Assembly (NCBI GenBank): GCA_021806865.1
Contig: JAKAPU010000091.1
Span: 1-10,346, forward strand
Origin: an archaeon
GTDB taxonomy: Archaea > Thermoproteota > Nitrososphaeria > Nitrososphaerales > CADDZS01
Direction of reading: 5' to 3'
DNA: 10,346 bases
In this document: positions 1,811 through 10,346 of the stretch, piece by piece
Position numbering within the stretch: the first letter of the stretch is position 1
Layout: the number at the start of each line of letters is the position of its first letter
Notes under the pieces: generated by a model
Seen by the model: the letters and a program-made list of their open reading frames with translations, nothing else
Told to the model about the DNA's origin: nothing
Databases searched by the model: none
Translations under genes and position numbers: made by a program

Positions 1811-2413
1811 ATGGCTTCGTTATCGGAAGCAAAGTCTCTTGGAGGAGTGGGATCTGTTCTCGTACTTCTAACAGTAGCACCAACGGTCGGATGGATTCTG
1901 GGAATAGCTGGATTTGTAATGACACTCGTTGCTGTGAAATATATATCGCAAATAGTGAAAGAAGTAAAGATATTCAACGATATGCTCATCTCTGTCGTAC
2001 TTGCAATAGGAGGAATCGCAGTCGGAACAGTGACTGTTCTTGGTGCAGTGTTCCGGGCACTGGGGATGGGCAGTTTCGTTGGAACCGAGTTCGTACCGGG
2101 TCCGAACATAGCCGCAGGTGATTGGATAGGGCTCGCCTTAGGGGTCCTTGCCGGTCTTGCGGTTGTGTGGGCGCTTATGATAGCTTCAGCTGTTTTCCTT
2201 CGAAGAAGCTACGACTCGATAGCTGCAAAGTTGAATGTCGGTATGTTTAGGACAACTGGCTTGCTCTATCTGATAGGTGCGGCAACCACAATAATAGGAG
2301 TCGGATTTGCTCTGATACTCGTGGCACAAATACTCGCAGCGGTATCATTCTTCTCCATGCCTGAAAGACCTCCAGAACCTGCTCAAACTCGGACTATCCC
2401 TGCCAGCGTCTAA
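1811..2413 (+). CDS. DUF996-family integral membrane protein
   Basis: This is a 200-residue protein starting at ATG. The N-terminus, with SLSEAKSLGGVGSVLVLL, TVGWILGIAGFVMTLVAVKYI and an IFNDMLISVVLAIGGI stretch, matches what I know of DUF996 (COG2245), a mostly archaeal membrane family of unknown function. Four to five hydrophobic segments are visible, at about residues 10-45 (two helices with a Pro-containing turn), 58-85, 107-130 and 148-180. A short proline-rich hydrophilic tail ends ...PEPAQTRTIPASV. The length is typical for the family. The next gene starts 39 bases after the stop on the same strand and is also a small membrane protein, so the two are probably co-transcribed. The role is unknown; the membrane location is secure. 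Confidence 0.8.
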   Translation: MASLSEAKSLGGVGSVLVLLTVAPTVGWILGIAGFVMTLVAVKYISQIVKEVKIFNDMLISVVLAIGGIAVGTVTVLGAVFRALGMGSFVGTEFVPGPNIAAGDWIGLALGVLAGLAVVWALMIASAVFLRRSYDSIAAKLNVGMFRTTGLLYLIGAATTIIGVGFALILVAQILAAVSFFSMPERPPEPAQTRTIPASV

Positions 2414-2452
2414 AACGCCTAATTGTTTCGGGGTGCAAGGAGAGGATCGACA

Positions 2453-3070
2453 ATGACAGAAAGAGCTGCCCCGCTGAGCAAGGCAAGAGCTGAACAAAAC
2501 AAGAGGAGAAGATTTGAAACAATAGCGGGGGCCTCCTTTCTTGCTGGAGCGGCCGAATTCCTGCTGCTGACCACGATCGCAGAGTCATTGTACCCGGCAT
2601 ACAATGTCAGGGATCAGGCTTTGAGCGAGCTGGGGGTGGGGCATGTGGCGCTGCTTTGGAATGCGTCGCTCTTCTTGCTTGGAGTCGCAGTGATCTTTGG
2701 AGGATACTTTGCTCACCGATCGATGGCAAGCAGGTTAAGTGCGACTCTTTCGTTCATACTTGGCATAGGGTTTGTGGGAGCCGCAATCTTTCCTCTCAAT
2801 TCTCCTACTGGCATCCATGGATTTTTCGGTCTACTTGCATTTGCAAGCGGCGGACTGTTTGCCTTAACCTCGTACCGTGTCGTGGGAAGCAAGGGAATGA
2901 AACTATTCTCGATATTGTTTGGAGTCTATTCGTTCATTTCGCTCGTGCTCCTTGGCTTCGATGTTAACCTGGGACTGGGTGTGGGAGGAATGGAGAGGAT
3001 GATAGATCTCCCGCTAGTAATCTGGCTCTCCGCGTTCGGTGGTTACCTGCTGCACACTAGAAACGAATGA
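2453..3070 (+). CDS. DUF998-family integral membrane protein
   Basis: I place the start at ATG 2453, with a purine-rich GGAGAGG about 7-10 bases upstream, rather than at a TTG 30 bases earlier. The protein is 205 residues. A basic leader (residues 10-20, KARAEQNKRRR) precedes about six hydrophobic segments. The first contains AEFLLLTTIAESLYPAYN and is followed by a DQALSELG motif, with the conserved Glu, Tyr-Pro and Ser-x-Leu-Gly pattern of the DUF998 family (COG3371). Later features are LWNASLFLLGV, FPLNSPTGIHGFFGLLAF and a final IWLSAFGGYLLH helix. The function of DUF998 proteins is not established. The gene follows the DUF996-like gene closely and converges on the ABC permease gene, separated by 58 bases holding a small hairpin. 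Confidence 0.8.
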   Translation: MTERAAPLSKARAEQNKRRRFETIAGASFLAGAAEFLLLTTIAESLYPAYNVRDQALSELGVGHVALLWNASLFLLGVAVIFGGYFAHRSMASRLSATLSFILGIGFVGAAIFPLNSPTGIHGFFGLLAFASGGLFALTSYRVVGSKGMKLFSILFGVYSFISLVLLGFDVNLGLGVGGMERMIDLPLVIWLSAFGGYLLHTRNE

Positions 3071-3107
3071 TCGACCAGTACGTGCGTTACAACTGGGGGC
3101 AAGTCTG

Positions 3108-3122
3108 ACTGTTTTAGACAGT
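3108..3122. terminator. Small hairpin between convergent genes
   Basis: ACTGT (3108-3112) and ACAGT (3118-3122) form a perfect 5-bp inverted repeat around the loop TTTAG. It lies in the 58-base gap between the ends of the DUF998-like gene and the ABC permease gene. The stem is short and there is no long U-tract, so a terminator role is tentative. Confidence 0.25.
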
Positions 3123-3128
3123 GCTATT

Positions 3129-4808
3129 CTATCTGCGTCTACGAAGTATTGCCTGGACGACTGCGAGTTCTCCGGCTGCGATGAGAGTCATTATACCGAT
3201 CGCCAGAAACTGGCTCGTAAGCAAAAGAGCAATTGCTCCATACGCGATCAGCGGAATCACCAAGATTATTCCAGAGATGATCAGGGACTTGATGAGCAGA
3301 CCAATATCGGAGGAGACCATCACGCTAAACCCGCTTGACATGCCTCTGCCTCCTGGAGCGACCTTTGGTATCAATGCCTCACTCAAGGTCCTGCCCCTCA
3401 CGAACATTGCAATCTCTGCAGTCGTCGCTGCGCTGACTGCGAAAGTCTCAACTAGAGGCACAAGGAAAGATATTGTGACCGCCTGCCTGATGAGCTGTAG
3501 CGCAATGATTAGTGCGGGTACTGGAAGGTATGCTATAGTGGAGATCAATGATTTCCCACTGATTACCATCCTTGGCCCAATAGGAAGAGACATCGAGTAG
3601 CCGAGTCCGGCCCTTTCCGTGTTCAACAAAAAGGAGCTCAGCATCAGAGTGAATAGCGATCCCATCCCGGTGGACATGAGCACGTCTTCAGTTGCGAATA
3701 CTCGGCCGGACGTCGACAGGATTATTATTGCGGTCTCAAAGACGGGAAACGCAAATATCATAGCGGTCGAGGGGCTCTTTGCGGCTAAGCGCAGATCCTT
3801 CAACATGAAGGCGTAGAGAGGCTTTCTGAGCTTCAACGAGTACTCCTTTGCGGATTCCCTGATTATGCTGACCCCCTGTCCGTGGGTGAGGCCAGTGATT
3901 GTGTGCAGAGTCCTCTTGCCCGCTGCGTAAGCAATTAGGGCATACACGACGACTGATGCAAAGCTCATGAGCAGGAGAGGAATCACCGAACCCGAGGCAA
4001 ACGACGGATACACGAGATATGCAATAGCTAGGCCGAAAGAGAATGGATGCAGGACGGCCAGAATCCATCCGCTCCACTGGGCGAGGTTTCCTGAGATAAT
4101 ATCATTCATCAGAGGTAACAGATAGATTACAATGTTGAACACAAATCCTATGCTCATCGCCGCGATCCCCCACGAGACGATGAAGATGAGCCTCGCGAGA
4201 GATGCACCCCTTGACCTTCCGCCACGGGTAATGTTGCGGTAAAACAACCCGGCGAATCCCAGTCCTATCGCGACGGCAAACACGGCGTTCATCACAGCTG
4301 CGGCTGCCATCAAGATGGTGGCTAGCACGGATCCCGTCAAAACCGCCATTCCCACAACCGGAACTACTATGCATACAACGGCTAGGTAGTCAAACGTCCT
4401 GACAAAGGAGAGCATCGTAACAAGCGAGAAGTCACCACTTTCAAATGGGAGCGTCAGAAGAATGGAAAATGGCTCGGCGCTTGCGAACGACGGTAGTATC
4501 TGTAGTGAGTACAGTACCAGATACGCGAGGCCTATGGCGAGGCTCAGTGATGCCGCGCTCACAACCGAGACCGGACCCGGTGCAATAAGAAGCGAGGCAA
4601 AAGGAATCGCCGTCCCAATTGCCACAAACACCGCGAAGATTAACTTGCTCCGTTGAGCGCTTTTGATCAGCGAAGTTATCTGCTTCTCAGGAGTCTGCGT
4701 CAGCGAGCCAGATTTCATCATGTCTGCTCCACGGCTCAGCTGGACAGACTCGTAGGCAACTTCGAGATAGAGAGTCTTGCTGAGCTTCCACGCTTCGCGG
4801 ATGTTCAT
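3129..4808 (-). CDS. ABC transporter permease, ABC-2/exporter-like, 559 residues
   Basis: This polytopic membrane protein starts at ATG (4806-4808) and ends at TAG (3129-3131). A soluble N-terminal stretch of about 50 residues is followed by roughly a dozen hydrophobic segments, beginning around LIFAVFVAIGTAIPFASLLI. A cytoplasmic-looking basic region with ITRGGRSRGAS lies in the first half, and another with KEYSLKLRKPLYAFMLKDLR in the middle. The latter resembles the coupling segment that precedes the second membrane half in large two-half ABC-2 permeases. The protein ends in an ILRRRR basic tail. The gene starts 15 bases after the ATPase stop, so the pair is an operon and should form an exporter or efflux complex at the cytoplasmic membrane. 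The substrate is not deducible: no binding protein or biosynthetic neighbour is present. Confidence 0.85.
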   Translation of the reverse strand: MNIREAWKLSKTLYLEVAYESVQLSRGADMMKSGSLTQTPEKQITSLIKSAQRSKLIFAVFVAIGTAIPFASLLIAPGPVSVVSAASLSLAIGLAYLVLYSLQILPSFASAEPFSILLTLPFESGDFSLVTMLSFVRTFDYLAVVCIVVPVVGMAVLTGSVLATILMAAAAVMNAVFAVAIGLGFAGLFYRNITRGGRSRGASLARLIFIVSWGIAAMSIGFVFNIVIYLLPLMNDIISGNLAQWSGWILAVLHPFSFGLAIAYLVYPSFASGSVIPLLLMSFASVVVYALIAYAAGKRTLHTITGLTHGQGVSIIRESAKEYSLKLRKPLYAFMLKDLRLAAKSPSTAMIFAFPVFETAIIILSTSGRVFATEDVLMSTGMGSLFTLMLSSFLLNTERAGLGYSMSLPIGPRMVISGKSLISTIAYLPVPALIIALQLIRQAVTISFLVPLVETFAVSAATTAEIAMFVRGRTLSEALIPKVAPGGRGMSSGFSVMVSSDIGLLIKSLIISGIILVIPLIAYGAIALLLTSQFLAIGIMTLIAAGELAVVQAILRRRR

Positions 4809-4823
4809 AGTTTAGAGCGCCCT

Positions 4824-5669
4824 TTACCTATCGACGAAGAATGCTTCGCGCAAAGTCCTGATCGTCTCGGTGACCTCCTGCTCTTCGTGGGTGAGTTTCA
4901 AAAAGACCTCTTCAAGCGTCGCTTTTTCTTCGCCGGCGCGGCCCTCTCCCGCCTTTTTTCTCAGCTCGTCCAAGGAGCCCTCGGCGACGATTTTTCCCTG
5001 GTAGATTATGCCGATCCGGTTGCACAGGTGCTCTGCAATTTCCATAATGTGCGTCGAGAAGAGCACGGCACCCCTGTTTTTCTCCGTGTGGAAAGATATC
5101 AAGTCCTTGAGTATCCTGCTGCTCTTTGCATCCAGCCCGTTGAGCGGCTCGTCCAGCAATAGTAGAGGCGGCTCGTGCATGAGGGCGGCTATGATCGACA
5201 CTTTCTGCTTTGTTCCCATCGATAGCGTTGCGATCGGCGAGTCGTAGTACTGGCTCAAGTTGAATGCCGTTGCCAATCTGGTTACCCTCTCGTTTGCCCT
5301 TTTCGGATCGATCTTTCTGACGGATGCAACAAATTCGAAGAAGTCCCTAGGAGTGAGAGAGTCGTAGAGCATCGCGCTTTCTGCGACATAGCCGATGGCC
5401 GACTTTACCTCGACCGGACTTGTGGAAGGCTCACGGCCCAGCACGCGCACATAACCGGAAGTCGGCTCCAAGAGGCCGACTATGATTTTGATCATGGTGC
5501 TCTTGCCCGATCCGTTGGGGCCGAGTAATCCATAGATCTCACCCGGCATTATTTTCAGGTCAAGGCCGGAGAGTGCGACCACGGAACCAAAGTGCTTGAC
5601 CACGCCGGTCGCTTCTATTATGGGGGTGGTCTCTGACGAGTACTGCTGTCTTGGCTCTACAGTTTGCAT
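4824..5669 (-). CDS. ABC transporter ATP-binding protein
   Basis: This 281-residue nucleotide-binding subunit powers the permease encoded next to it. Visible motifs are Walker A GPNGSGKST (residues 50-58), the Q-loop region IGYVAESAMLYDSLT (about 92-106, with Glu where Gln often stands, as is common in ABC-2 type ATPases), signature LSMGTKQK (149-156), Walker B LLLLDEPLNGLD (169-180) with catalytic Glu174, and the H-loop STHIMEIAEHL with His207. All catalytic residues are present, so it should be active. A C-terminal extension of about 50 residues (KKAGEGRAGEEKATLEEVFL onward) is charged and typical of this subfamily. The start is ATG 5667-5669. The opposite strand carries a 169-codon shadow ORF across the ABC pair, which I reject. 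Confidence 0.92.
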   Translation of the reverse strand: MQTVEPRQQYSSETTPIIEATGVVKHFGSVVALSGLDLKIMPGEIYGLLGPNGSGKSTMIKIIVGLLEPTSGYVRVLGREPSTSPVEVKSAIGYVAESAMLYDSLTPRDFFEFVASVRKIDPKRANERVTRLATAFNLSQYYDSPIATLSMGTKQKVSIIAALMHEPPLLLLDEPLNGLDAKSSRILKDLISFHTEKNRGAVLFSTHIMEIAEHLCNRIGIIYQGKIVAEGSLDELRKKAGEGRAGEEKATLEEVFLKLTHEEQEVTETIRTLREAFFVDR

Positions 5670-6446: not shown

Positions 6447-7154
6447 ATGACAAATAGCAAGGCTCGCTCTAAGGAGAAGGACCTGAGTGCGAGAAGGCGA
6501 AGAATGCAGGAGAAGGGCAGGATACCATGGAGTTACATTGTGCCAGCGATTGTTGTCGTGGTTGTAGTATTAGGAGTCGTCTACATAGAGTCGAGCACAG
6601 GACCTTCGACAATCGTGACGACTGGAATCGGCAACGGTATTTTTCCACTTGCCTGTTCCAGCGAACAATCACTTGTCATGCACGTGCATCCGTGGCTTCG
6701 CATCGTGATAGAGAATCAAAACATCACCATACCTTCAAACGTTGGCGTGACTGTTTCTTGCGACGAGCCGGTCCACACGCACGACTCTTCAGGGATAATT
6801 CATATCGAGTCGTCGACCTACACAAATTTCACTCTTGGAGAGTTCTTCGAAATCTGGGCTGCGACTTATGCCTACGCTGCCATAAATAACACAAAGGCTC
6901 CGATTGTTTTCAATTCAACAGACATCCTCGGCTTCAGGGCAGACCAGAGTCACAGCGTTGTTCTGCTTGTGGATGGGCAGAAATCAAACGCTTACGGTTC
7001 TCTCGTGCTAAACTCCTTGGACTATTGCAACGCTTCCAACTCGGTATCTGCATCTTCACCGTGCTATGCCACGGCACAGGGAAATCCTTTCTACTCGGGA
7101 TCCTCTGGATATGATTTCGGAACCGGGCACACCATAGTGATCGAGTACGTGTAG
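6447..7154 (+). CDS. Membrane-anchored extracellular protein with HVHPW and HTHD-x-GIIHIE motifs
   Basis: I choose ATG 6447, preceded by an AAAGGA site about 9 bases upstream, rather than a GTG 24 bases earlier; this gives 235 residues. A basic cytoplasmic N-terminus (residues 5-25) leads into a single membrane helix at 28-47 (SYIVPAIVVVVVVLGVVYI). The rest should face outside and carries several N-x-S/T sequons. Conserved-looking motifs are HVHPWLRI (79-86), ITIPSNVGV (93-101) and PVHTHDSSGIIHIES (108-122), then FTLGEFFEIW. The last group resembles proteins in Nitrososphaeria and some bacteria of unknown function. His79, 81, 110, 112, 119 with Asp113 and Glu121 could bind a metal, which is inference. 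Cys70, Cys105 and two later Cys could form disulfides. It stops at TAG before a pyrimidine-rich stretch. Confidence 0.8.
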   Translation: MTNSKARSKEKDLSARRRRMQEKGRIPWSYIVPAIVVVVVVLGVVYIESSTGPSTIVTTGIGNGIFPLACSSEQSLVMHVHPWLRIVIENQNITIPSNVGVTVSCDEPVHTHDSSGIIHIESSTYTNFTLGEFFEIWAATYAYAAINNTKAPIVFNSTDILGFRADQSHSVVLLVDGQKSNAYGSLVLNSLDYCNASNSVSASSPCYATAQGNPFYSGSSGYDFGTGHTIVIEYV

Positions 7155-7158
7155 AGAG

Positions 7159-7178
7159 TGTTATCTTTTCCCGTCTCT
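7159..7178 (+). terminator. Pyrimidine-rich tract at convergent gene ends
   Basis: The tract beginning TTATCTTTTC directly follows the His-motif gene, within the 32-base gap to the convergent small gene. It fits an archaeal U-rich terminator; no hairpin is seen. Confidence 0.3.
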
Positions 7179-7186
7179 TCGGCGTA

Positions 7187-7396
7187 TCACTGATATTTTG
7201 AGAGAATTGTCACGCCAGTTCGCCAGAGGCGATCAACCCTGCGGCGAAAGTGAGTTTCGCAGTCGCCGTAAGGCACTCTTGCAATTTCTGGCGATTCAAC
7301 TCCTATCTTCTGGCACGTTTTGCACAACTTGGGATCGTATCGTGATTGTGTCTCGTCTTGCAGACGTTCGGTAGAAACCTTATAGATTTGAGACAT
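7187..7396 (-). CDS. Small CxxC...CxxH putative zinc-binding protein, 69 residues
   Basis: The same frame is open much further upstream (to 7711, with a possible TTG at 7639), but that part is low-complexity and poorly protein-like. I place the start at ATG 7394-7396, because a strong TATA box on this strand (TTATATTC, 7427-7434) would start transcription near 7406, leaving about 10 bases of leader. The protein has a charged N-terminus, then KLCKTCQKIGVES with Cys25 and Cys28, and GDCETHFRRRVDRLW with Cys46 and His49. This C2-CH spacing suggests one structural zinc site next to a basic helix, so nucleic-acid or protein binding is possible. I do not recognise the family. It ends at TGA (7187-7189), facing the His-motif gene. 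The longer 150-residue version remains possible. Confidence 0.55.
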   Translation of the reverse strand: MSQIYKVSTERLQDETQSRYDPKLCKTCQKIGVESPEIARVPYGDCETHFRRRVDRLWRTGVTILSKYQ

Positions 7397-7420
7397 GGTT
7401 TCGCAATTAGTATCTGGAAT

Positions 7421-7439
7421 CCAGCTGAATATAAGCTGG
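7421..7439 (-). promoter_or_regulatory. TATA box enclosed in a perfect palindrome
   Basis: CCAGCT (7421-7426) and AGCTGG (7434-7439) are perfect inverted arms. Between and partly overlapping them lies GAATATAA, which on the minus strand reads as the TATA element TTATATTC. A protein bound here would block TBP, so this looks like the operator-promoter of the small gene ending at 7187. Confidence 0.5.
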
Positions 7440-7860
7440 GACTGTCGTGTTCCGATATATTCCGGAAAAGGATTGTTTTGACAATAGGGCCATGCCCGAC
7501 GTGGAGCCCTGTCGTAGATCTCAGGTAAACTTGACGTAGGTGCCCAATGGACCAACTTCACAGGAGAGACATTCTTGCCCGAGCACATCTCTGAAGGATC
7601 GGACTCAGTGCCGGGCATCGATTGGTTTGATTCTAGCAAAGTACAGTTCGAAGCAGGAAACTGATAATCTCGCCCGAAACTGGGGTCGATTACATCTTGA
7701 GAAAAGGCTCATGGCCCGAAGTGTTGAAATCTTGCCCTTTGTCAAAGCATGAATTTACCTCACTGGTGAGGCTTCCAAAAAATAGTAAAAGGATGAAAAC
7801 AGCAGGCGCGCTCATTTGTGGTTTCGATTCAAACCATGACCTTGGTAATCGTGTTCGGGA
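7440..7860. other. Non-coding stretch of about 420 bases between divergent small genes
   Basis: I see no gene here. The minus-strand frame remains open to 7711 as an upstream extension of the small CxxC gene but has no good start. The plus-strand ORFs at 7346-7882 are short and of poor composition. An inverted repeat TGGTTT/AAACCA (7819-7824, 7831-7836, 6-base spacer) sits upstream of the next promoter. T-loop-like bases within it do not extend to a tRNA. Confidence 0.4.
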
Positions 7861-7885
7861 TTTATTAGATGCGCGCGCCTAATAG
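7861..7885 (+). promoter_or_regulatory. TATA-like box overlapped by an inverted repeat (candidate operator)
   Basis: TTTATTAG (7861-7868) is a TATA-like box about 47 bases upstream of the TTG at 7911. Its end is one arm of the perfect inverted repeat TATTAG (7863-7868) and CTAATA (7879-7884), which spans a GC-alternating core GCGCGCGC. Overlap of arm and TATA box suggests repression. Confidence 0.4.
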
Positions 7886-7910
7886 AATGTGAAGTGGGGG
7901 TGAAATCAAA

Positions 7911-8165
7911 TTGGTAAATGCTAGGACGACGACAAGGTGGGTGGGCGCTGCGTTAATCATTGCCGGAGGTCTGCTCGGCCTTTATGGATTGGTTCTGACA
8001 GGATACGCACCTCTCACAGCTGCTTGGTGGGGATTCAAGTTCAGCGTATTTTGGGGCGGGATCGCAGCTTTGATAGTGGGAATTGGCGCGGTATTCACTG
8101 CACAATACTACATGCGTGAAGAGAGGCCAATAGAAGAGAGAAAGAAGATGGAAATCCAGCCTTGA
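7911..8165 (+). CDS. Small two-helix membrane protein
   Basis: The 84-residue ORF starts at TTG 7911, preceded by GGGGGTGA (7896-7903) at about 7-8 bases, a good SD site that supports this non-ATG start. Two hydrophobic helices are clear, at residues about 10-32 (WVGAALIIAGGLLGLYGLVL) and 43-66 (FSVFWGGIAALIVGIGAVFT), joined by a short loop with TAAWWGFK. The C-terminal tail is charged (REERPIEERKKMEIQ) and probably cytoplasmic. I recognise no family. It stands alone between divergent and convergent neighbours with its own promoter, and its palindrome-overlapped TATA box suggests it is regulated individually. Confidence 0.65.
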   Translation: MVNARTTTRWVGAALIIAGGLLGLYGLVLTGYAPLTAAWWGFKFSVFWGGIAALIVGIGAVFTAQYYMREERPIEERKKMEIQP

Positions 8166-8192
8166 ATCGCTTCCCGCGAGAAAAGAGAGCGT

Positions 8193-8212
8193 CAGTGGGT
8201 TCTCGCCCACTG
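8193..8212. terminator. Hairpin between convergent genes
   Basis: CAGTGGG (8193-8199) and CCCACTG (8206-8212) form a perfect 7-bp stem with a 6-base loop. It lies in the 77-base gap between the two-helix protein gene and the zinc-ribbon gene. On the minus strand it is followed by a CTCTCTTTTCTC tract, so it can serve as a terminator, perhaps in both directions. Confidence 0.5.
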
Positions 8213-8242
8213 GCCAATTTGTTCTGAAATGCGTTGTTATTG

Positions 8243-8869
8243 CTAGAGTTTCGAGCCGCAATTCCCGCAAAAGTTCACTGAGGGATTATTGTCTGCACCG
8301 CATTTTGCGCATTTCTTCATTCCTAGAGCGGCGCCGCAGTTGTTGCAGAATTTCCCGCCTCCCGAGGTCTTGCCGCAATTAGGGCACACGGTCTGCTGTT
8401 CCTTCAAATCACCTGTGTACAACGTAGAGGCTTTGGCTCTTTCCCAGATCTGATCTTTCGTAGCACTCGCCTTGGCGGCGCCGACCTCAGAAGCAATCTT
8501 TGGCGCGTCTTCAGTGCACAGCCCTCCTGCCTCCTCGTTCCAGTCTTGATCACAAGCGTATTTGTGGCATCGCGGGCACCTGTGGAAGTGAGACATTGCT
8601 TCGTTTGATGCCTGCTGAAACGCGGCCTCCCTCTCCTTGTTCCACTCCGGGGTCTGATAAGCCTGTCCTCCAAGAGCACCTGCAAGGTATGCGTTGCTGT
8701 TTATGTAACTACCAAAACTGGAAACCTTGTTGAACAAGCCCTTTCTCTTCGCAGTTTTTGAGCCTATGAATTGAGATTCATAGCCGTCGCCGCAAACATC
8801 GCACTTGAAAATGAATTGAAACCCGTTTTCATTGCTCTTGTCCTCATAATTCCTGGTGAAGGACTGCAT
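8243..8869 (-). CDS. Zinc-ribbon protein with N-terminal CxxC domain and C-terminal double zinc ribbon
   Basis: The start is taken as ATG 8867-8869 (208 residues); a GTG two codons earlier is equally possible. The N-terminal domain has FQFIFKCDVCGDGYES (first Cys pair), a Gly/Ala-rich segment, the helix EWNKEREAAFQQASNEAMSH, then HFHRCPRCHKYACDQDW and a GGLC. This is the layout of a zinc-binding domain known from bacterial proteins found beside SPFH genes. After a helical linker, the C-terminus carries two zinc ribbons, CPNC...CNNC and CAKC...CGNC. No membrane helix is present. The gene is divergent from the four-ribbon/SPFH pair with about 230 bases between starts, which suggests a shared system. 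The likely role is scaffolding or protein-protein binding rather than catalysis. Confidence 0.82.
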   Translation of the reverse strand: MQSFTRNYEDKSNENGFQFIFKCDVCGDGYESQFIGSKTAKRKGLFNKVSSFGSYINSNAYLAGALGGQAYQTPEWNKEREAAFQQASNEAMSHFHRCPRCHKYACDQDWNEEAGGLCTEDAPKIASEVGAAKASATKDQIWERAKASTLYTGDLKEQQTVCPNCGKTSGGGKFCNNCGAALGMKKCAKCGADNNPSVNFCGNCGSKL

Positions 8870-8892
8870 GGGCACAACGCTCGCGATGAGAT

Positions 8893-8900
8893 GTTAATAA
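8893..8900 (-). promoter_or_regulatory. TATA-like box for the zinc-ribbon gene, leaderless transcript predicted
   Basis: On the minus strand TTATTAAC is centred about 28 bases before ATG 8869 and about 22 before GTG 8875. No Shine-Dalgarno site precedes either codon. Transcription would begin at or within a few bases of the start codon. Confidence 0.5.
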
Positions 8901-8929
8901 GTGCATAGTATTGGTGGCCCATTGCCAGA

Positions 8930-8975
8930 TTTGGAGACTAGTTGTGATTCCAAAAGATGCGTCGGTTAGGACGCA
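8930..8975. other. Two perfect inverted repeats in the divergent intergenic region
   Basis: TTTGGA/TCCAAA (8930-8935, 8949-8954, 13-base spacer) is followed at once by TGCGTC/GACGCA (8958-8963, 8970-8975, loop GGTTAG). They could be operators controlling both divergent genes or a small structured RNA. No coding sequence is visible here. Confidence 0.3.
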
Positions 8976-9066
8976 GAACAAAGAGGATGTTTACGGTTCC
9001 AATATCGCGGATTTAGAATATGAAAAAGGAATCAACCAGTTTGCGCAATAGTGCAGTTTTTATCCA

Positions 9067-9074
9067 TGTTTATC
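9067..9074 (+). promoter_or_regulatory. Possible TATA box for the four-ribbon protein gene
   Basis: TGTTTATC, with a preceding TTTTTATCC, lies about 27 bases before the TTG at 9098. This would give a leaderless transcript starting at that codon and is one reason to prefer 9098 over the ATG at 9020. Confidence 0.35.
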
Positions 9075-9097
9075 TGCGAGGCCCGCGCAGGTCAAAA

Positions 9098-9448
9098 TTG
9101 CCAAGCTTCAAACGGCCATGCAGGTACTGCTCAAAGTTAGTGATGCCCGAGGACGTGACGTGCCCTTTCTGCGGAAAGGAATCGCCAATTTACATTCGTT
9201 GCCCAAAGTGCAAAGCCGAGGTCAAGAGAGATTATCAGAAATGCCCTTCATGCGGTCAGGCTCTTCAGATAATTTGTACGAAATGCGGCAAGCAAACCTT
9301 CTTTGACGTATACTGCGATGCATGTGGGCAGAAACAAGAAGTGGAATGCCCCAAGTGTCACACGAAACAACCTCCAGTCTTCACGAATTGCATTTCATGC
9401 AAAAAGCAGTTGCCATTGATTGCAAAGGCAGCTACGGCAACATCCTGA
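9098..9448 (+). CDS. Protein made of four tandem zinc ribbons
   Basis: I prefer the TTG at 9098 (116 residues): the protein then begins MPSFKRPCRYCSKLV, the usual beginning of such ribbon proteins, and a TATA-like box lies about 27 bases upstream. An in-frame ATG at 9020 would add 26 residues of unconvincing sequence. Eight CxxC knuckles are present: CRYC, CPFC, CPKC, CPSC, CTKC, CDAC, CPKC and CISC, enough for four zinc-bound ribbons over almost the whole protein. A KCGKQTFFDVYCDACG element matches the repeat seen in double-zinc-ribbon proteins. There is no membrane helix. The stop is 16 bases before the ATG of the SPFH gene, so the two are an operon. The likely role is an adaptor or scaffold for that protein. 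Confidence 0.8.
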   Translation: MPSFKRPCRYCSKLVMPEDVTCPFCGKESPIYIRCPKCKAEVKRDYQKCPSCGQALQIICTKCGKQTFFDVYCDACGQKQEVECPKCHTKQPPVFTNCISCKKQLPLIAKAATATS

Positions 9449-9464
9449 TGGAGAGTTGTAGAAA

Positions 9465-10346
9465 ATGTGCGAATATTGTCAGGGTGAAGGGTGCATATGC
9501 GGCAATGACCCTGAGGCAAAGTACCAAGCTCCGTGCCAGTGTAATGTAATCGGAATTCAAAAATGTTCGACCTGCGGTTGCGATGCGCAACCCTGGTGGG
9601 CAGACTTGCAGTTGCCCGGCGGTGATTCGATCAGAGACTTACTGTGGGATCTAAACAGCGATGAAGGATTCTTTCCAGCCTCCAAGGATAAGATAATCCA
9701 AGCGCTTTCGGAAAGCGACGGGGGATGGCTGTCTAAGAATCTGCCAAACAGCTCATACAAGGATACTGGAGAAGTCGTTTCTGCACTTTTGCAAAAGTCG
9801 CCGCCAATCGAGTGGCAGGTACAACCCACAGAGATTTACTGGAGGTATCCGGGAGCTACAACCTGCGCGGGTCAGCAACTCGTAGTCAAAGAAGATCAAA
9901 AGGCGGTAATGATGAACAAAAGTGGCAAAGCCTGCGACGAATTTGTGACCGGAAAGTACTCGCTCTCAAGCTCAAATTGTCCGGTCTTGTTTGCAAACTC
10001 TAGGAAAGTTGCTCCTGGTTTTCAGCATGTCGTGCTCGATGGATTCCCGGTGTTTGTTTCAACTTCCAAAGAGTTCGAAGTCGCAATCATGGCCATCGGA
10101 CAGAGCAAGTCCCTGCGCAGTGTTATGGCAAATGGAATTGCGAGGGTACGGATATCTTCACCAAAGGAATTCCTCGAGCAGATTGGATCGAAAAGCAACT
10201 ATAATTCTTCAAACGGGCTCTCGTCTCTCCAGAAGTACAGCGCAGAGCTGCTGAAAAAGGAGATGCTCGCGCACGAGCTAGACGAAATCAGTGGCAATAC
10301 TGCGCTTCTCGAAAGTGTCCTGTCCAATGGTTTACGGACAATTGGG
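9465..10346 (+). CDS. SPFH-domain protein (YdjI-like) with Cys-rich and DUF2795-like N-terminal domains, 3' end beyond window
   Basis: The frame is open for 294 codons from ATG 9465 to the right edge without a stop. An in-frame TAG directly upstream (9459-9461) fixes the start, and GGAG lies 11 bases before it. Residues 2-39 hold nine Cys (MCEYCQGEGCICG, CQC, CSTCGC), probably a zinc module. Residues about 54-110 (FFPASKDKIIQAL, LPNSSYKDTGEVVSAL) resemble the small helical DUF2795 domain. From about residue 115, IEWQVQPTEIYWRYP, GQQLVVKEDQKAVMMNKSG, FVTGKYSLSSSNCPVLF and VARVRISSPKEF-like features match the SPFH domain of YdjI-type 'virion core' proteins (COG4260). Such proteins form membrane-associated assemblies; B. 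subtilis YdjI helps recruit PspA. The fusion is unusual to me; the SPFH call is firm, the DUF2795 call moderate. Confidence 0.8.
   Translation, partial: MCEYCQGEGCICGNDPEAKYQAPCQCNVIGIQKCSTCGCDAQPWWADLQLPGGDSIRDLLWDLNSDEGFFPASKDKIIQALSESDGGWLSKNLPNSSYKDTGEVVSALLQKSPPIEWQVQPTEIYWRYPGATTCAGQQLVVKEDQKAVMMNKSGKACDEFVTGKYSLSSSNCPVLFANSRKVAPGFQHVVLDGFPVFVSTSKEFEVAIMAIGQSKSLRSVMANGIARVRISSPKEFLEQIGSKSNYNSSNGLSSLQKYSAELLKKEMLAHELDEISGNTALLESVLSNGLRTIG

Follow-up and report, generated by a model that had tools for sequence, protein, structure and literature searches.

A 10,346-nt stretch of archaeal DNA (hereafter the window; Nitrososphaerales, GenBank assembly GCA_021806865.1, contig JAKAPU010000091.1) carries at its right end three neighbouring genes, here named A, B and C, of which A and B encode zinc-ribbon proteins and C encodes an SPFH protein that runs past the edge of the window. 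The trio is genuine and is conserved as a group, and the A-B pair is its deeper conserved core. The name D is given to a separate protein specified beside distant A-B loci. The explanation that we favour, at a probability of about 0.45 and thus slightly below even, is that A and B are an adaptor pair working with an exchangeable scaffold, either C or D, perhaps beneath the membrane, a role that we infer. Proteins that combine an SPFH domain with zinc ribbons have been discussed together with PspA genes or genes of the endosomal sorting complexes required for transport (ESCRT) in passages of PMC8581546, PMC11237479 and PMC10936438. Here, an SPFH + ribbon protein has come together with another pair of ribbon genes, one of wider distribution, in genomes where PspA was undetected, and A, B, C and D provide a concrete protein set for asking what SPFH proteins and their ribbon partners do without PspA. 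No title or abstract opening in the open-licence literature was found to describe the A-B pair or D; the search was limited to that literature and hence is no proof of novelty.

Conservation of the gene group

The main survey covered 400 genomes from the class to which genome G001 belongs. A profile of B matched five of them (G001, G218, G353, G366 and G389; E ≤ 9.4e-44). The profile of A matched 12 at E ≤ 1e-20, among which the five genomes with B stand out (E ≤ 1.9e-94), the other seven lying between 4.9e-47 and 7.1e-26. By simple counting the probability of this agreement is ~1e-11, a figure that is too small because of shared ancestry. Within the order to which G353 belongs, B was found in 5/201 genomes, adding G404, and a search of the phylum returned A in 9/398 at E ≤ 1e-25. 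Twelve further genomes picked for carrying A were searched for B, which matched at E ≤ 1e-3 in eight, with the best match beside A in seven, and gave no match in four. In total, B is present in 13 genomes, being adjacent to A in 11, inferred to be adjacent in one (G001) and separate in one (G389). The two genes are in tandem in G218, G366, G430, G437, G530 and G562, and divergent in G353, G404, G452, G583 and G466, with a divergent order inferred for G001. Because both orders occur, the adjacency has been kept or remade through rearrangement. The divergent pair of G466 (L090, ~5.6–6.7 kb) is interrupted, the A match holding two TGA codons and B lying in two pieces, which may reflect decay, sequence error or unusual decoding.

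The window's lineage is taken to be G001, G353, G389 and G404, in which A is 78–79% identical to the A of the window; in more distant genomes the identity is 43–55%, some of those frames being partial. The named nearest relatives (A at ≥67% identity, and all matches of B and C) are labelled as Nitrososphaerales/Nitrososphaerota (P0036, P0139 and P0007) or Thermoplasmatota/Thermoplasmataceae (P0033 and P0038).

Gene C was followed using protein P0001, which has a full length of 409 amino acids and, over the 294 residues that it shares with C, is identical at 293. It matched 128 of the 400 class genomes at E ≤ 1e-3. Most of the matches listed were to ribbons only, and at least 19 were SPFH proteins whose alignment begins at residue 103–118, leaving out the N-terminal part. 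Also among the matches listed, those that include the N-terminal part of C came from 3/400 genomes (G001, G353 and G389), all within the five with B, and C was found only in the close lineage of the window, in three of its four genomes. The window layout is repeated in G353 (C, 15 bases, B, 82 bases, divergent A). In G001, one contig starts inside B and continues into C while another ends just past the start of A; the two fit the window layout across a contig break, although this is not proof. In two of the three loci where the upstream side of C is visible it adjoins B, the C proteins there being 58% and 46% identical to P0001. The preliminary description, made from the window sequence alone, had allowed for the neighbourhood being unconserved among relatives; since the A-B-C layout is conserved, recurring in G353 and, across the contig break, in G001, this objection falls away. 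It had also proposed looking for co-occurrence of the three proteins across archaea; in the class survey the genomes with B are exactly those with a strong A, and C was found only in the window's lineage.

Features of the A, B and C proteins

Coordinates are collected in Table 1. Protein A has six CxxC pairs, at residues 25, 100, 164, 177, 189 and 203, a number reached in 0/20,000 shuffled sequences. The protein has an N-terminal CxxC (C25, C28), a middle cysteine cluster (C100, C103, C108, C120) and a C-terminal double zinc ribbon (Pfam DZR match, residues 164–207), and these cysteines are invariant in an alignment of 22 sequences. Protein B has eight CxxC pairs, forming four ribbons (as many in 3/20,000 shuffles), and also matches DZR. 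All three proteins match this double zinc ribbon family (PF12773) above the curated cut-off; it is a small metal-binding module, and a match to it does not define A or B as full-length families. The highest mean Kyte-Doolittle value over 19 residues is 0.55 for A, 0.64 for B and 1.07 for C, so that none has a clear hydrophobic segment, whereas two membrane-type open reading frames of the window, taken as controls, reach 2.23 and 2.71. In these respects the preliminary description was accurate: it had given A an N-terminal CxxC and a C-terminal double ribbon, B four ribbons and C an SPFH domain, and had found the ribbon proteins to lack membrane helices.

Homologous B frames (P0135, P0136, L033 and L021) begin at MPSFKR or similar, corresponding to TTG 9098 in the window (MPSFKRPCRYC...), and in G404 a stop codon lies immediately 5′ of the matching methionine. 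B therefore probably starts at TTG 9098, and with this start the gap between A and B is 222 bp. The corresponding region is 82 bp in G353 and 88–97 bp in G404, depending on the start of A. It had been described as a palindrome-rich promoter region between divergent genes; the divergence stands but the palindromes do not, and a palindromic promoter was rejected. This region holds two inverted repeats with 6-base arms, against 1.44 expected, a count equalled or exceeded in 107 of 300 dinucleotide shuffles; inverted repeats with arms of 7, 8 or more bases are absent. The 16-base gap reported between B (stop 9448) and C (start 9465) is correct.

Relatives of A are numerous (802 at E ≤ 1e-3), and the best 120 of these include some from sources labelled as bacteria; relatives at ~50% identity come from sources labelled bacteria as well as from archaea. 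No tested function is named for any relative among the best 120 of 802, and because A is so widespread, understanding the A-B pair would aid the annotation of many genomes. Weak profile matches of A include ribbons of ribosomal proteins L40e/L32 and of DNA polymerase D. The predicted structure of A is poor (predicted local distance difference test (pLDDT) 70.2, predicted template modelling score 0.43) and matched nothing in the PDB at E 0.001; no conclusion is based on it. Sequence searches of solved structures gave only ribbon-level or chance matches. No plasmid match was found for A, C or D, and a plasmid search with a bacterial A (P0102) returned five records, each covering 20–31% of the query. 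In a search of viral contigs none of A, B and C had a confirmed relative, and models of defence systems gave only weak matches to the four proteins (E 0.0099 and 0.097). A search of phages with A returned a single record, the Nitrososphaera phage Pro-Nvie1 (FR725450.1, nt 15,394–15,663), in which one protein is similar to the ribbons of A in its C-terminal part (37% identity over 42% of A).

The part of C within the window matches Pfam Band_7_1 (PF13421, the family of YdjI-type SPFH proteins; E 2.8e-10). An SPFH frame closing shortly after the window edge had been considered as a possibility; in P0001 the frame runs on to 409 residues, with Band_7_1 at residues 126–270 (39.6 bits, cut-off 24), a helix at 324–350 and a double ribbon (DZR) at 360–406 (42 bits, cut-off 27.3). 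The zinc parts of C itself, a cysteine-rich N-terminus and this C-terminal double ribbon past the window edge, were missed by the preliminary description. The N-terminal segment is conserved among the homologs that possess it. Band_7_1 is above its cut-off in all ten rows of the C alignment (25.0–39.6 bits), and the double ribbon is present in nine, the exception being P0007, which is marked as partial in its source. A sub-threshold match to DUF2795 occurs in eight of ten C homologs (best E 0.012) and is absent from L001 and P0001 (none at E ≤ 1 in the latter). Six homologs were viewed singly, and in the five that show the match it falls within residues 66–116; it is only a lead. The P0001 model has a mean pLDDT of 75.7, with low confidence for the first 21 residues, and among its top Foldseek matches in the PDB are chains of HflK/C, prohibitin and stomatin, with E values as low as 4.5e-10.

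Protein D

D is an undescribed protein of 416–483 amino acids encoded beside A-B in five distant genomes, with a fragment in G218. Nothing scored above the cut-off in Pfam (all five proteins) or NCBIfam (three), and a D profile gave a single match in the PDB (E 0.39). All five proteins have an internal tandem repeat, its halves aligning over ~60–90 columns with scores of 56–112, compared with shuffled means of 24–26; the score was reached in 0/500 shuffles for each of the five. The repeats are rich in strands and close with a helix, a pattern by which they may be PH- or GRAM-like. Among 43 genomes the D profile matched six, all of them with B (6/13, against 0/30 without B), a count that includes the five genomes from which the profile was built. 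No match was found in the C-bearing genomes G001, G353 and G389.

PspA and other SPFH genes

PspA was not recognised beside any of the A-B or C loci. PF04012 was found in one of six A-B genomes searched, namely G366, which lacks C and carries the match on a different contig from A-B; it was found in none of the three genomes with C, while the same search gave matches in 9 of 14 control genomes. The PspA of G366, used as a phmmer query, matched only itself among 2602 open reading frames of 125 loci, a search in which distant relatives would be missed.

Of the 13 genomes with B, 12 have a Band_7_1 match at E ≤ 1e-3 and 11 have one above the cut-off. Eight carry a strong match (E 2.9e-25 to 9.4e-34), in every case away from the A-B contig, as compared with 4.6e-8 for the C of G001. 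These eight genes (L110–L117) specify SPFH + zinc ribbon proteins, and G353, G404 and G389 are among their hosts. They have the same domain order as C but lie on other contigs, match Band_7_1 more strongly and are preceded by a gene for a protein of 175–201 amino acids. This helical-looking protein lies directly upstream in 8/8 cases, and the two genes make up a second conserved pair. It was considered as PspA-like and rejected, as there was no Pfam PspA match and hhalign against the PspA of G366 gave a probability of 0.2%; one of the eight has an RPN5_C match above the cut-off.

In a tree of 32 SPFH proteins, which did not include YdjI, the 11 rows of C group together in a single clade (100/100), whose stem measures 2.14 changes per column. 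The eight typical rows are not united in this way, four of them are joined by a stem just as long (2.25), and the tree program gave a warning about long branches. C does not group with the typical SPFH + ribbon genes, and in G353 C and a typical copy coexist. Since eight A-B genomes hold a more typical SPFH + ribbon gene elsewhere, C is probably an additional, diverged second SPFH protein. The counterpart of YdjI in these genomes is probably the other, more typical gene, although this is not proven.

Neighbouring genes

Outside A, B, C and D, the flanks differ among most lineages. After C, G353 has a DRG-type GTPase (MMR_HSR1 + TGS), and G001 has genes for an APS kinase, a phosphodiesterase and an ATP sulfurylase on the strand opposite to C. 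The preliminary description had left open whether a PspA- or ESCRT-III-like gene follows beyond the window; in the window's lineage the genes after C are those just named. It had also pointed to vWA and ATPase genes as possible neighbours, and such genes do occur, but in a single genome outside that lineage: in the distant G366, genes for an AAA_5 (MoxR-like) ATPase and a VWA_2 protein (L058, nt 9387–12,414), their longest frames overlapping slightly, come after a D-B-A row. The row B-A-D of G530 continues with DUF350 and a glutathionylspermidine-synthase-type ATP-grasp gene (L089, nt 10,095–12,187). Each of these two sets occurs in only one genome among the 125 loci. In a Pfam scan of 26 selected neighbour frames, no TPM-domain (YdjH-like) match and no match to Vps4, ESCRT-III or adaptin-like proteins was found, and no protease or chaperone gene was recognised, nor was one common to the neighbourhoods.

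Beyond B, G404 has an aldehyde ferredoxin oxidoreductase gene, and in G389 a GvpD/KaiC-like ATPase (L060, nt 3445–4911) faces B. A frame with an AsnC-type helix-turn-helix and a KaiC-type ATPase lie 3′ of A in G452 (L087, nt 8065–9383) and G466 (L090, nt 6927–8251), identified by Pfam in the former and by similarity in the latter. About 4 kb from C in G353, a protein of 194 amino acids (L033, nt 2665–3249, minus strand) carries a C-terminal zinc ribbon (Pfam); its first part, which has no Pfam match, may by eye be GRAM/PH-like.

Interpretation

A and B, which are kept as a gene pair across a wide range of archaeal genomes, would be partner zinc-ribbon proteins, probably in one complex. In the window's lineage C, with a predicted SPFH fold and a cysteine cluster at either end, has been added to the pair, and in several other genomes the unrelated D stands beside it. 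Many SPFH proteins multimerise, and C may do so through its SPFH domain to form a scaffold, the ribbons of C, A and B together holding the complex and recruiting clients; A and B would be soluble adaptors, with C or D as the scaffold. Because clear membrane helices are missing from A, B and C, they would touch a membrane, if at all, only peripherally. PspA does not appear to be needed. The neighbour sets of G366 and G530 favour, without proof, participation in assemblies on or beneath the membrane, and the DUF350 and ATP-grasp genes beside B-A-D are a hint of sub-membrane work.

Several points weigh against an adaptor pair with an exchangeable scaffold. The exchange of C and D is deduced from gene neighbourhood only, and zinc ribbons are equally able to bind nucleic acids. 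In G389, the clear exception, A, B and C are on three contigs with different neighbours, A lies apart from B, and C, itself cut by the contig end, has a transporter-like frame upstream. The C of G353, which is outside the alignment, scores below the Band_7_1 cut-off (20.0 against 24). Five of the 12 genomes chosen for carrying A have no B beside it (G108, G350, G352, G122 and G171, the last giving only weak ribbon matches), and the choice of these genomes itself counts on the same side, as does the overlap between the D profile and the genomes it was counted in. The D profile found no match in G404, G452, G583 and G466, so that a third partner is not always seen; G404 has A-B, and neither C nor D was detected there. 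D was rejected as a relative of C (hhalign probability 0.5%, the profiles being unrelated). Absences of genes are in any case weak evidence, since the genomes may be incomplete.

The closest known arrangement is that of pspA-ydjGHI in Bacillus subtilis, where YdjI is required, with YdjG/H, for placement of PspA at the membrane according to passages of PMC8581546, and where Ravi et al. describe, in part of PMC11237479, an SPFH protein with a C-terminal ribbon in the same operon (written YdjL). As these passages describe YdjI, it is like C in combining an SPFH domain with C-terminal zinc ribbons, in being soluble and in having ribbon-protein neighbours. The trio could then be an archaeal PspA-YdjGHI or other Psp-type membrane-stress system, in which A and B replace YdjG/YdjH, PspA or ESCRT-III is encoded elsewhere and C or D organises a membrane assembly. 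The SPFH + ribbon form of C agrees with this, as does G366, where A has AAA ATPase and vWA genes after it and PspA is on another contig. So does G530: DUF350 and such ATP-grasp genes are reported in some PspA operons, and operon variants without the PspA dyad are described, in part of PMC11237479, and both genes follow D in that genome. We nevertheless consider it unlikely. These neighbour sets are confined to one genome each, no PspA was seen in the stretches of G530 examined, and PspA was found in just the one of six genomes and in none with C, against 9/14 controls; its only match in the 125 loci was to itself. A and B, unlike YdjG, lack clear membrane helices (no 19-residue mean above 0.64). 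C differs from YdjI, which is known here from papers and was not compared in sequence, by ~115 extra N-terminal residues with a cysteine cluster; it forms a clade of its own, and G353, G404 and G389 have a separate, more typical SPFH + ribbon gene. The preliminary description had already judged the layout not to be a copy of the B. subtilis system, and this agrees with the finding of no PspA and no membrane-integral ribbon protein beside C. Archaeal Meth_adaptin ESCRT loci, as presented in part of PMC10936438, include an SPFH + coiled coil + zinc ribbon protein; compared by description and not by sequence, C shares the SPFH domain and ribbon, and the 26 selected neighbour frames gave no match to Vps4, ESCRT-III or adaptin-like proteins.

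Zinc ribbons often bind nucleic acids, and A and B may instead be nucleic-acid- or ribosome-associated proteins acting in transcription, translation or ribosome hibernation, with C beside them as a lineage-specific accident of gene order. The weak matches of A to L40e/L32 and polymerase ribbons point the same way, the occurrence of A relatives at ~50% identity in sources labelled bacteria as well as in archaea might suit such a general cell function, and C is not beside B in G389. We regard this as rather unlikely: the weak ribosomal matches of A cover single ribbons only (E 0.05–0.1), C is beside B in two of the three loci whose upstream side is visible (58% and 46% identity with P0001), and the repeats of D, whose fold is itself unproven, are not a recognised nucleic-acid fold. 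A cytosolic adaptor for chaperones or proteolysis, in which an SPFH ring with ribbons presents clients in the manner of prohibitin or HflK/C around FtsH, would account for the structural matches of C (HflK/C-FtsH, prohibitin, stomatin), for its lack of a clear membrane helix and for the MoxR-like ATPase after A in G366. It is quite unlikely, as the structural match is to the SPFH fold alone, which does not carry the function with it, and no protease or chaperone gene was recognised among the 26 neighbour frames scanned or as one shared by the neighbourhoods. An adaptor pair with C or D as scaffold is the explanation that we prefer. A bolder extension of it, possible but doubtful, is that A-B forms the centre of a so far undescribed system of protein assembly in prokaryotes, with interchangeable sub-membrane scaffolds (C in one archaeal lineage, a tandem PH-like D in others), which occasionally borrows DUF350/ATP-grasp or AAA + vWA genes and to which the bacterial relatives of A would also belong.

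Table 1. Positions of genes, segments and the A-B intergenic region in the window, and of D in other genomes
Feature	Sequence	Position (nt)	Strand	Remarks
Gene A	Window	8243–8875	−	210 amino acids; start GTG 8875 or ATG 8869
A-B intergenic region	Window	8876–9097		222 bp, divergent; inverted repeats not above chance
Gene B	Window	9098–9448	+	Four zinc ribbons; longest frame from ATG 9020, homologs favour TTG 9098
Gene C, N-terminal cysteine-rich segment	Window	9465–9599	+	Residues 1–45: C2, C5, C10, C12, C24, C26, C34, C37, C39
Gene C, helical segment	Window	9660–9800	+	Residues ~66–112
Gene C, SPFH/Band_7_1 domain	Window	9840–10,346	+	Cut by window edge
D	L058 (G366)	6705–8117
D	L085	7699–8949
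D	L086	5294–6721
D	L089 (G530)	8411–9772
D	L091	635–2086

Other features of the window

Neither an Rfam search of the window at gathering scores nor a scan for tRNAs returned anything. An ABC exporter pair occupies nt 3129–5669 (minus strand) and consists of an ATPase (nt 4824–5669, PF00005) and a 12TM_1 membrane protein (nt 3129–4808, PF09847). Genes of the DUF996 and DUF998 families lie side by side at nt 1811–3070 (plus strand).

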